Translations under genes and position numbers: made by a program
Shown here: in pieces, positions 3,112 through 5,302 of the stretch
Layout: each line of letters begins with the position of its first letter
Numbering within the stretch: the stretch's first letter is position 1
Virus record (IMG/VR): IMGVR_UViG_3300042914_001141
Coordinates: 1 to 20,498 of that record
Strand: one strand, 5' to 3'
DNA length: 20,498 bases
Source: a virus
The notes under the pieces: generated by a model
The model's input: the letters and a program-made list of their open reading frames with translations, nothing else
What the model was told of the DNA's origin: nothing
Databases searched by the model: none

Positions 3112-3452
3112 TGAGTGCTAAGTTCAACCTTGTCTGCGAGCAAGCCACCACATTCAATTTTCAGTTTCAACTCAAGAACGACAACACGCCCTGGAACCTT
3201 GCTGGGTACACAGGGACGATGACAGTTCGCCCATTCGTCGGGGCTAATACGACCACCGTCATTGCCTCAACCGACAATGGCAGGATGGTTCTTGATGCCC
3301 TCAACGGGCGAGTGACGGTCACGATTGCGGCATCGGTGACTGAAGGCATTAGCCAAGGGCGCTATGCCTATGACCTCGTACTCCAGACCGGAGCGACGGT
3401 AACTAGAATCCTTGAAGGTCGTTTCGTAGTGACGGGGGCTGTAACGCTGTGA
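3111..3452 (+). CDS. Beta-sandwich accessory virion protein (BppU-N-like)
   Basis: A 113-aa protein starting [20 protein letters not shown] at ATG 3111, chosen because it overlaps the previous stop. The pattern of short beta-strands ([14 protein letters not shown], then [15 protein letters not shown], then YAYDLVL and [14 protein letters not shown]) is that of phage proteins related to the N-terminal domain of baseplate upper protein BppU, which anchors side fibres. The following collagen-like protein overlaps it by four bases, so this protein may be the collar or socket to which the collagen-like fibre attaches. The fold is inferred from the strand pattern only. Confidence 0.65.
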
Positions 3453-4222
3453 CCACTTATGTCGTCATCGAATCTATCACACCTCAGCAATCCATCGTTT
3501 TCTCGGCGGATCAAGGTCCTCAAGGAGCGGGCGGAGTTACAGGGCCAACCGGCCCTACGGGTGCTACAGGCCCCTCTGTAACGGGAGCCACCGGATCTAC
3601 TGGACCTACCGGAGATACGGGTCCTACAGGCTCTACAGGCCCTTCTGGAGCCACTGGAGACACTGGTCCTACGGGAAGTGCTGGACCAACCGGACCGACG
3701 GGAGATATAGGTGCAACGGGTGCTACTGGTGATACTGGACCTACTGGTTCTGCTGGTCCCACTGGTCCTACTGGCGATATTGGTCCTACTGGGCCGACTG
3801 GAGCGACGGGTGCTGACTCGACCGTCCCTGGACCAACTGGTCCAACAGGTCCGGCGGGAGCGGCAGGGGCTACTGGCCCAACAGGACCCACTGGTGAGAC
3901 AGGACCTACAGGAGCGACTGGATCTGCTGGAGCGACTGGTGCAACAGGAGCGACTGGTCCGACTGGTGACACAGGACCGACAGGACCACAAGGCGATATA
4001 GGTCCTACCGGACCTGCTGGCGCAACAGGAGCAACTGGCGCCACAGGCGCAACGGGTGCAACGGGTCCAACGGGCGATACTGGCGCAACCGGACCTGCCG
4101 GTCCGACTGGCCCAACGGGTGCAACCGGAGCGACAGGTGCTACCGGAGCCACAGGTGCGACTGGTCCGACAGGACCCGCTGGAGCGGGCCTACAAGATAT
4201 CTTTATGCTAGGTGGTATGTAG
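3449..4222 (+). CDS. Collagen-like virion protein (Gly-X-Thr repeats)
   Basis: A 257-aa protein. Residues 1-22 are a non-repetitive head ([20 protein letters not shown]), residues 23-247 are Gly-X-Y triplets, mostly GPT, GAT, GDT and GPA, with breaks at GPSVTGAT and GADSTVPG, and the end is [10 protein letters not shown]. It should form a trimeric triple helix, as a fibre or capsid/tail decoration. Thr dominates the Y position. There is no Lys, Arg or His in the whole protein, so Lys-based collagen modification is impossible and only Thr/Ser O-glycosylation is available. It starts at GTG 3449, overlapping the previous stop (GTGA). A glycosyltransferase follows nine bases after its stop. Silent codon positions are heavily varied across the repeats. 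Confidence 0.92.
3515..4189 (+). repeat. Collagen Gly-X-Y coding repeat
   Basis: About 75 nine-base units coding for Gly-X-Y triplets, with two short interruptions. A longer protein unit of about 24 residues occurs twice in a row (starting [19 protein letters not shown]), yet the two DNA copies differ at many third positions. All four codons each of Ala, Thr and Gly are rotated along the tract. Confidence 0.9.
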
Positions 4223-4231
4223 ACTTCTCGT

Positions 4232-5302
4232 ATGAAAGTCGCTGTCTACACAATAGCCAAGAATGAAGAGCAATTTGTCAAACGGTGGTACGAGTGCAGT
4301 ACCGAAGCAGACTATCACGTCATTGCAGATACTGGATCAACAGATAGAACGGTTGAACTCGCCAGAGAACTCGGTATCGACACGTATAGCATCAGCGTTC
4401 TGCCTTTTAGGTTTGATGATGCACGGAACGCTTCCTTAGCGCTAGTCCCTGCTGACGCAGACTACTGCATCGCTTTGGATATGGATGAAGTTCTCCAGCC
4501 AGGGTGGAGGCAGGAGTTAGAGCGGGCCTTTGAAGAAGGCACCGACAGACCTCAGTACCGATTCATTACGGACTGGACAGCGGCAGGAGAGCCTGCCATA
4601 GAGTTTGATGGATTCCGTATCCATAGACGCCAAGGCGTTAGGTGGAAGTATCCCATCCACGAAGTCCCTATGACCTACGAAGGTGGGGACGTACGCAAAC
4701 GCTACAACTTTGAAGTCCACCACAGACCCGATGTTACGAAGTCACGTGGTCAGTATCTAGACCTGCTACGCAGGGCGGTGGATGAAGAGCCTGATGCGAG
4801 GAACCTCTACTACTTAGGCAGAGAGTTGTTCTTCCGTAAGGCTTACGATGACTGTGCGAAGGTCATCAAGGAGTACATCACTAAGTCTAACTTTCCGGCA
4901 GAGAAATCTTTTGCGCTACGGATGCTCGCTAAGTGCGAGCCTGATAGGGCAGAGGAATGGCTACTGCAGGCAACCGAAGCCTGCCAGACCCGCGAAGCGG
5001 TCTTGGCTTTGGCTAACCACTACTACACACAGAAGCAGTGGAAAGAGTGCAACTACACCGCGAAGTTGGCACTGACGAAAACTGAGAAGGTCACAGGCTT
5101 CCTATCGGAAGAGTGGGCTTGGGGCCATATGGCAGATGATCTGGTTGCAGTCTCAGCGTGGCAGTTAGGCAACTGGAAAGAAGCCTATAAGCACGGGAAG
5201 ATCGCACTAGGTATCAGTCCTGAAGATGAGCGACTAGCGAACAATGTCGTATTTTATGAGCAGAAGTTGAAGGAAGCAACTGCCAAGAAGAAACGGAAGT
5301 AG
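4232..5302 (+). CDS. Family 2 glycosyltransferase with TPR-like C-terminal region
   Basis: A 356-aa protein. The N-terminal GT-A domain shows the GT2 opening YTIAKNEEQFVKRW (7-19), the nucleotide-sugar motif DTGSTDRT (33-40), DDARN (62-66) and the metal-binding LDMDE (82-86). An F-R-I-H-R segment and IHEVPM (about 142-147) are typical of SunS-like/TPR-associated GT2 enzymes. From about residue 190 it is helical with repeat-like units (NLYYLGRELFFRKAYDDCAK, LANHYYTQKQWKECNYTAKL), as in TPR-linked protein glycosyltransferases, and it ends in KKKRK. It probably transfers a sugar from a nucleotide donor onto a protein. It sits between a Thr-rich collagen-like protein and the putative adaptor, so a virion protein is the best substrate candidate. 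Substrate and sugar are unknown. Confidence 0.88.
   Translation: MKVAVYTIAKNEEQFVKRWYECSTEADYHVIADTGSTDRTVELARELGIDTYSISVLPFRFDDARNASLALVPADADYCIALDMDEVLQPGWRQELERAFEEGTDRPQYRFITDWTAAGEPAIEFDGFRIHRRQGVRWKYPIHEVPMTYEGGDVRKRYNFEVHHRPDVTKSRGQYLDLLRRAVDEEPDARNLYYLGRELFFRKAYDDCAKVIKEYITKSNFPAEKSFALRMLAKCEPDRAEEWLLQATEACQTREAVLALANHYYTQKQWKECNYTAKLALTKTEKVTGFLSEEWAWGHMADDLVAVSAWQLGNWKEAYKHGKIALGISPEDERLANNVVFYEQKLKEATAKKKRK

Follow-up and report, generated by a model that had tools for sequence, protein, structure and literature searches.

A collagen-like gene and a neighbouring glycosyltransferase gene in a freshwater-type phage as a probable module for threonine glycosylation of a virion fibre

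The virus record IMGVR_UViG_3300042914_001141 (20,498 bases, the whole of which was analysed and is termed the window) contains a gene for a Gly-X-Thr-rich collagen-like fibre protein (3449..4222, plus strand), which is followed after a spacer of 9 nt (4222 to 4232) by a gene for a family 2 glycosyltransferase (GT) with a C-terminal TPR array (GT2, 356 amino acids; 4232..5302, plus strand). This pair is located inside the virion gene block, with the capsid, BppU-like and adaptor genes around it. Sequence comparison, structural modelling and analogy suggest that it is quite probably responsible for the production of a Thr-glycosylated collagen fibre, in which the enzyme O-glycosylates the Thr residues of the fibre. 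This proposal is based on the pairing and co-occurrence of the genes, the swapping of the enzymes, the conservation of the catalytic motif, the fold of the model and the Thr enrichment, which are described below. The first-pass annotation of this DNA had reported a 257-residue Gly-X-Thr collagen without Lys, Arg or His, which is encoded 9 nt before a GT2-TPR gene in a structural block, and all of these features are confirmed. It had also suggested that the enzyme decorates the Thr residues of the fibre. This suggestion has strong comparative support, because the co-occurrence, enzyme replacement, Thr enrichment, peptide GT-like fold and SgtA/BclA3 precedent agree with it, but the link is not specific to GT2, since an unrelated GT4 is present in 62 of the 63 loci that lack GT2.

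The collagen-like protein starts at a GTG codon and contains 77 Gly and 60 Thr, but no Lys, Arg or His, in 257 residues. It consists of an N-terminal head (residues 1-22, ..VIESITPQ..; 3449..3514, plus strand), which resembles the N-termini of its relatives, a Gly-X-Y region of 73 triplets identified by composition count (3515..4189, plus strand), and a short C-terminal tail (..DIFMLGGM; 4190..4219, plus strand). The triplets form three runs of 7, 26 and 40 (residues 23-43, 46-123 and 128-247), and Thr occupies the Y position in 55 of the 73. The protein matches the Pfam Collagen family with an E-value of 2.9e-31 (107.5 bits against a cut-off of 27.2). At least 45 of the 145 open reading frames (ORFs) for related collagens have an end of the ..LGGM type. 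As a separate observation, the fibre-type protein encoded at 6212-6823 ends with ..MFLLMGA (6800-6820), and these two ends are perhaps a common assembly or anchoring tail.

To describe the gene arrangement in related phages, loci were collected with the adaptor and BppU genes as anchors, which were chosen regardless of collagen or GT. The BppU-to-adaptor interval is complete in 73 of the 111 loci fetched and incomplete in the other 38. The scans retain the best 80 matches, so that close relatives are over-represented, and several contigs occur in both scans; clustering at 95% leaves 30 loci. The interval contains a collagen gene in all 73 loci and at least one GT gene in 72 of them (GT4 in 56, GT4 and GT25 in 6, GT2 and GT25 in 7, GT2 in 3, none in 1), so that GT2-TPR is present in 10 and GT4 in 62. 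A GT is still present in 29 of the 30 loci after clustering. In 57 of the 73 loci, the gap between the collagen gene and the first GT gene does not exceed 20 nt; it is up to 130 nt in 4 and larger in 11. When the 38 incomplete intervals are searched with the GT2 model only, 17 contain collagen without GT2, 20 contain neither and 1 contains GT2 without collagen. In contrast, none of 75 loci of a related clade, which was found with the adaptor of Planktophila phage E7 (taken as OX376640, LanE43-AprE7), contains collagen or any of the three GT families in the fetched DNA; these are the 75 of 80 loci that hold both capsid and adaptor (29 after clustering), and they are mostly fragments, judged on the fetched DNA only. 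When GT2 itself is used as the anchor (best 80 of 583 viral matches), 72 of the 80 loci contain a collagen gene, at a distance of up to 120 nt (43 loci), up to 1.3 kb (18) or more (11), and five of the eight remaining loci are truncated contigs. When GT4 is used (best 80 of 97 matches, many without an adaptor), 60 of the 80 loci contain one, and truncated contigs account for 17 of the 20 without collagen. These synteny counts, namely the occurrence in the two clades and the gaps, indicate that the collagen-GT pairing is not due to chance. In the proposed check that the two genes stay adjacent across phages, a GT is found in 72 of 73 collagen loci, but GT2 itself is missing from 63 of 73. A predominance of homologous collagen genes without the transferase, which the annotation had named as evidence against its suggestion, is literally observed in these 63 loci, yet 62 of them hold GT4. 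A strict test, in which this GT2 must stand beside each homologous collagen, is rejected by the same 63 loci; the link is therefore to glycosyltransferases in general, which the annotation had not anticipated. Apart from these counts, a paper on Planktophila phages describes two collagen-like proteins in the phages and one GT in each (PMC10202952). No above-threshold Gly-X-Y collagen is found in the examined pieces of E7, in which the best ORF is Gly-rich with a run of 9 triplets when Gly is allowed at X, and none of the three GT models matches these pieces at E-values up to 10. The GT of E7 may belong to another family.

Pairing of this kind is also observed in other phage lineages and in bacteria. 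In Synechococcus phage ACG-2014f, a collagen gene is followed by two ORFs, a GT4, a 2OG-Fe(II) oxygenase, a short ORF and a tail fibre gene. In faecal phage contig MT838491, a collagen ORF ends 10 nt before a GT2 gene. Actinophage DSL-LC01 contains genes for two collagens, a YHYH protein, a tryptophan-halogenase-like protein and a GT2; in this phage the tryptophan-halogenase-like gene is located directly before the GT2 gene (L082:4433-6004). Among 79 bacterial loci with a relative of the window GT2 (34-48% identity), a same-strand collagen gene is present within the fetched stretch in 24, within 300 nt in 17, and the pairs are from Actinomycetota, Bacilli, Clostridia, Alphaproteobacteria and others. 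A looser rule increases the number of loci with collagen to 28 of 79, but includes some spurious ORFs. It is conceivable that a different virion protein of the fibre module, such as a Gly-rich or small fibre protein, is the acceptor of the enzyme, and that the collagen is a mere neighbour, because other fibre-type genes lie between the collagen and adaptor genes in some relatives and because the distance between collagen and GT2 increases up to 4-5 kb in three loci (L001-L003). However, this explanation is unlikely, because nothing lies between the collagen and the first GT in 57 of the 73 complete intervals, and collagen is found near such GTs in other phages and some bacteria, where collagen and GT only were compared.

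The window GT matches Pfam Glycos_transf_2 with an E-value of 5e-7 and phrog_13126 with an E-value of 1.1e-114 over residues 1-350, which is nearly the whole protein. No NCBIfam family is above the cut-off. GT_PLOD, GT25 and 2OG-Fe(II) domains are not found in it by Pfam, which gives only GT2-type matches and a sub-threshold TPR_P4H match. Its GT-A domain contains a DxD motif (D83, D85; 4478..4486, plus strand) that is invariant in two alignments of relatives; D83, D85 and H143-E144 are invariant among 23 aligned relatives, and the same is observed in an alignment with more distant ones. An AlphaFold2 (AF2) model with a mean pLDDT of 94.7 consists of the GT-A domain and then a helical TPR-type tail (residues ~175-355; 4754..5296, plus strand), which is supported by structure alignment and by a profile search with matches to GmaR, SunS and both natural and designed TPR proteins. 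The peptide glycosyltransferases SunS and ThuS occupy the top ranks of the Foldseek search (E-values of 5e-18 to 5e-15). By VIA-align, the model is superimposed on SunS (7msp_B) with a Z-score of 23.6 and a root mean square deviation of 2.2 over 255 residues, and on ThuS (7msk_A) with a Z-score of 21.8 and a deviation of 5.8 over 290 residues; the next family is WrtF, with a Z-score of 18.0. This likeness of the predicted fold is without proof of the substrate. The alternative of phage DNA or the host envelope as the substrate, which corresponds to the roles usually proposed for phage GTs, follows suggestions of DNA protection or wall modification for the GTs of Planktophila phages E7 and F5 (reported in PMC10202952) and of such roles for pelagimyophage GTs (PMC7029224). 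It is quite improbable, because the enzyme gene is located in the virion block and tracks collagen in both presence and absence, because the nearest folds are those of peptide glycosyltransferases with a helical tail, and because none of the 18 Pfam-scanned window proteins is a recognisable base-hypermodification enzyme, although the 20.5 kb record may be a fragment.

The gene following collagen in most relatives encodes a GT4 of ~353 amino acids; the scanned representatives match PF00534/PF13692. A GT25 gene (~190 amino acids, PF01755) is sometimes present between the collagen and main GT genes. The GT2 and GT4 profiles are unrelated, with an hhalign probability of 0.1, and the GT4 model finds enzymes of the GT4/GT-B type. 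At least 6 changes of the GT2/GT4 state, and 13 for the presence of GT25, are required on an adaptor tree (66 sequences), which is a quick tree with 17 open forks and in which the absence of GT25 may partly reflect truncated loci. Because the occupant of the slot changes its fold while the collagen persists, this pattern is best explained by a common acceptor, as judged from sequence comparison. GT25 directly precedes GT2 or GT4 in 37 of 40 cases, and this position fits an accessory, sugar-extending enzyme.

The collagens of these phages are enriched in Thr at the Y position. The Thr share at Y in the phage clade is 90% in the loci with GT2, 87% with GT2 and GT25, 68% with GT4 and 75% with GT4 and GT25, and the median share per protein is 0.88 for GT2 and 0.67 for GT4. 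Of 134 unique proteins, 128 contain no Lys, Arg or His in their Gly-X-Y segments, and each of the other six contains a single such residue. A tblastn search of the phage collection with the window collagen gives no match, but is uninformative owing to the low-complexity filter, and therefore a Gly-Pro-X DNA pattern, which is neutral to the residue at Y, was scanned instead. Among the matches listed, 120 loci were fetched, and 88 of them contain a collagen ORF. Hidden Markov models (HMMs) of GT2, GT4 and GT25 match at E-values below 1e-30 in 11 of 31 Thr-rich loci and in 0 of 57 others (Fisher p of 2.6e-6). The numbers are 13 of 31 and 3 of 57 at E-values below 1e-10 (p of 4.5e-5), and 6 of 20 and 0 of 37 for the first 80 loci only (p of 0.001). 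These models were built from the phage loci described above, so that part of the matches may come from this phage group itself. The Pfam families of the neighbours were compared in the first 80 loci, with exclusion of 9 loci with 30-50% Thr and of ORFs below 150 or above 900 amino acids. The 83 neighbours of Thr-rich collagens (20 loci) include 2OG-Fe(II) oxygenase in 6 cases, GT2 in 4, GT25 in 3 and GT_PLOD in 2, some of which fall on the same protein. The 102 neighbours of Thr-poor collagens (28 loci) include GT2 in 2 cases, and the other families are not among the 25 of 74 families listed.

The two loci with GT_PLOD (L465 and L502) reveal a second type of enzyme, in which GT25, GT_PLOD and 2OG regions are combined (phrog_61). 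Its homologues over 92-100% of the length are found in Synechococcus phages S-CAM9, S-PRM1 and S-8S53 and Roseobacter phage CRP-6, and the tail-fibre collagens located 0.4-1.6 kb upstream in these four phages contain 37, 39, 44 and 27% Lys at Y. These PLOD-like enzymes or full-length homologues near Lys-bearing collagens are encoded at L568:7001-8842, L569:7001-8845, L570:6908-8677, L571:7001-8866, L465:2801-4621 and L502:5634-7308, a set that spans cyanophages, a Roseobacter phage and viral contigs. A collagen ORF is present in 10 of 15 PLOD-like viral loci, with 18-54% Lys at Y in all 10, two of which are the S-CAM9 and S-PRM1 genomes again. In contrast, Lys is absent from Y in 231 of 238 collagens of the GT2/GT4 loci and amounts to at most 8%, with both sets being phylogenetically clustered. 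The earlier argument that the absence of Lys excludes a Lys-linked collagen sugar is sound, and a PLOD-like enzyme is found near Lys-bearing phage collagens instead. Stand-alone 2OG-Fe(II) oxygenases are also observed near phage collagens (L364:9073-9666 and L568:5839-7004) and are candidate prolyl or lysyl hydroxylases. That the two genes have no functional link, but were brought together by recombination because hypervariable host-recognition islands frequently carry genes of both kinds, is most improbable, because the 72/73 co-occurrence, the 75/75 joint absence, the tight gaps and the match of enzyme type to collagen residues outweigh the extra cassettes that interrupt the pair in some loci and the reports of variable islands with fibre and collagen-like genes (PMC10202952) or fibre and GT genes (PMC7029224) in aquatic phages.

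Several observations do not favour Thr glycosylation of the fibre. Among the bacterial relatives of GT2, 55 of 79 are without a same-strand collagen in the fetched stretch, which is short in some cases, and these include many from Mesorhizobium and Bradyrhizobium. Seven of the 66 phage records that match GT2 were examined, and in five of these, all from jumbo phages (25-33% identity), the enzyme is encoded in the vicinity of structural and DNA ligase genes, and collagen is absent over a distance of 6 kb. One complete interval (L136) contains collagen without a GT, and three GT2-anchored loci with sufficient room contain no above-threshold collagen, although two of them have a weaker collagen adjacent. 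Thr at Y is common in bacterial collagens, with a reported frequency of 31.6% overall and 48.3% in Gram-positive bacteria (PMC8968730), and 20 of the 31 Thr-rich collagens of the Y-neutral sample are without a strong GT-model match in the fetched stretch. The structures nearest to GT4 are, by their titles, mostly of enzymes that act on small molecules or sugars. Related GT2 enzymes at L450:854-2077 and L497:1699-2943 are located near Thr-free, Lys- and Gln-bearing collagens, which the Thr model leaves unexplained; the GT2 family is therefore not bound to Thr in every case. Finally, the loci are mutually related, so that their counts are not independent.

Glycosylation of fibre Thr nevertheless remains the preferred explanation, and the two genes would then represent a phage-encoded collagen-glycosylation module. 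The TPR tail may hold the still-unfolded Gly-X-Thr chain, while the GT-A domain would transfer a host nucleotide sugar onto the Thr residues at the Y position in O-linkage before trimerisation. The resulting triple-helical stalk, coated with sugar, would belong to a fibre of the tail or baseplate. The unrelated GT4 would have this role in related phages, and the optional GT25 probably adds a further sugar. We infer the reaction, acceptor residues, sugar, timing and virion role from the comparisons described above. It is somewhat probable, with less confidence than for the module of the window, that tailed phages hold a general modular system of collagen modification, in which the enzymes are matched to the acceptor residue and the cassettes are exchanged while the collagen is constant. 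In such a system, Lys-free, Thr-rich collagens would be combined with GT2-TPR or GT4 and an optional GT25; the partners of Lys-bearing collagens would be a PLOD-like lysyl hydroxylase-glycosyltransferase and, as separate proteins, 2OG-Fe(II) oxygenases. Because the cassettes are exchanged beside a constant collagen, the same fibre would be coated with different sugars in related phages, and this changeable surface would serve stability, adhesion or evasion.

Most bacterial-type collagens are without hydroxyproline, which stabilises animal collagen. A co-encoded Thr glycosyltransferase is a possible reason for the dominance of Gly-X-Thr in some phage fibres. The first-pass annotation had proposed that the sugar could stabilise the triple helix, or mask or tune the adhesion of the virion. 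Galactosyl-Thr in Riftia collagen is reportedly a precedent for such stabilisation, for which no direct source was found. If the proposal is correct, phage GTs, for which protection of DNA or alteration of host walls has mostly been guessed, would gain a virion substrate, and enzyme swapping would be the means by which phages diversify the sugars on a single fibre. Matching of enzymes to Lys or Thr would make acceptor residues predictable from sequence, and would provide enzymes for recombinant glycosylated collagen.

The other genes of the window were assigned from ORFs and Pfam and PHROG matches. The major capsid protein is encoded at 335-1264, and small structural genes stand beside it among the virion genes. 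A BppU/tail-fibre-assembly-like gene identified by PHROG (3114..3452, plus strand) overlaps the start of the collagen gene, which also comes after the BppU-like gene in relatives. An SU10-type adaptor gene identified by Pfam (5306..6202, plus strand) follows GT2, as it directly does in most GT2-anchored loci. Downstream of it are genes for Gly-rich and fibre-type proteins and for a large tail-type protein (11220-13439), beyond which genes of the nuclease, helicase and primase type are located. The source virus is a freshwater-type bacterial virus. Its host is likely an actinobacterium, because the relatives of the adaptor in the phage collection are from Streptomyces phages (three examined are Beephvirinae) and two records named ct2KA10, and the tail-type protein also matches Microbacterium phages. 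The region 14885-15454 encodes a proteasome-subunit-like protein (PF00227, 2.4e-7), and an ORF at 7500-8036 of phage E7 resembles it by eye. A DnaG-type zinc ribbon and Toprim domains are encoded in two overlapping reading frames at 19420-20341, perhaps representing a split or frameshifted primase. A second putative glycosyltransferase is encoded at 18072-18764, according to the PHROG name (phrog_14945), and has no Pfam match.

Several known systems resemble the pair. The peptide S-glycosyltransferases SunS and ThuS, of which SunS is prophage-derived by its PDB name, have the nearest solved folds across the GT-A domain and tail, with 15-18% identity. They act on bacteriocin peptides. A bacteriocin precursor is not recognised beside the window GT, the direct neighbours of which are collagen and adaptor. 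The name of phrog_13126, beta-1,4-glycosyltransferase, implies sugar-to-sugar transfer, whereas the neighbourhood and fold of the window enzyme indicate a protein acceptor. Clostridioides difficile SgtA is described as a 358-residue protein consisting of a GT-A domain and four TPRs, the gene of which is immediately upstream of bclA3, and is reported to transfer beta-O-GlcNAc to Thr of collagen-repeat peptides in vitro in a metal-dependent manner (PMC7157674). The window enzyme, likewise a GT-A/GT2 and TPR protein of ~360 residues encoded beside a gene for a collagen rich in Thr at Y, thus resembles SgtA in domain order, size (356 and 358 residues), adjacency to a collagen-like gene and, with regard to the acceptor of SgtA, the Thr of the repeat. 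This likeness is drawn from the published description of SgtA rather than from its sequence. Relatives of the window GT2 with an adjacent collagen are found in Clostridia and Bacilli. The two systems differ in that BclA3 is located on the exosporium of the spore surface rather than on a virion, and that sgtA is upstream of bclA3 whereas the window GT is downstream of its collagen. BclA of Bacillus is also reported to be glycosylated, and mimivirus to modify its own collagen (PMC8968730). The PLOD/L230-type collagen lysyl hydroxylase-glycosyltransferase, known from mimivirus and animals, is a parallel in that a virus-encoded enzyme modifies a virus-encoded collagen in the case of mimivirus, but it acts on Lys, which the window collagen of 257 residues does not contain. 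Phage virions can bear glycans, as reported for mycobacteriophages Che8 and Rita, the sugars of which are on the capsid and tail tube and not on collagen (PMC11256854, PMC12619734). Among the titles and abstract beginnings of the open-access literature searched, no report was found in which a GT modifies a phage collagen or is paired with one. Glycosylation of collagen by an adjacent enzyme is already known in kind from the SgtA/BclA3, BclA and mimivirus precedents, and the phage module, the exchange of its enzymes and their matching to acceptor residues appear to be new within the literature searched.

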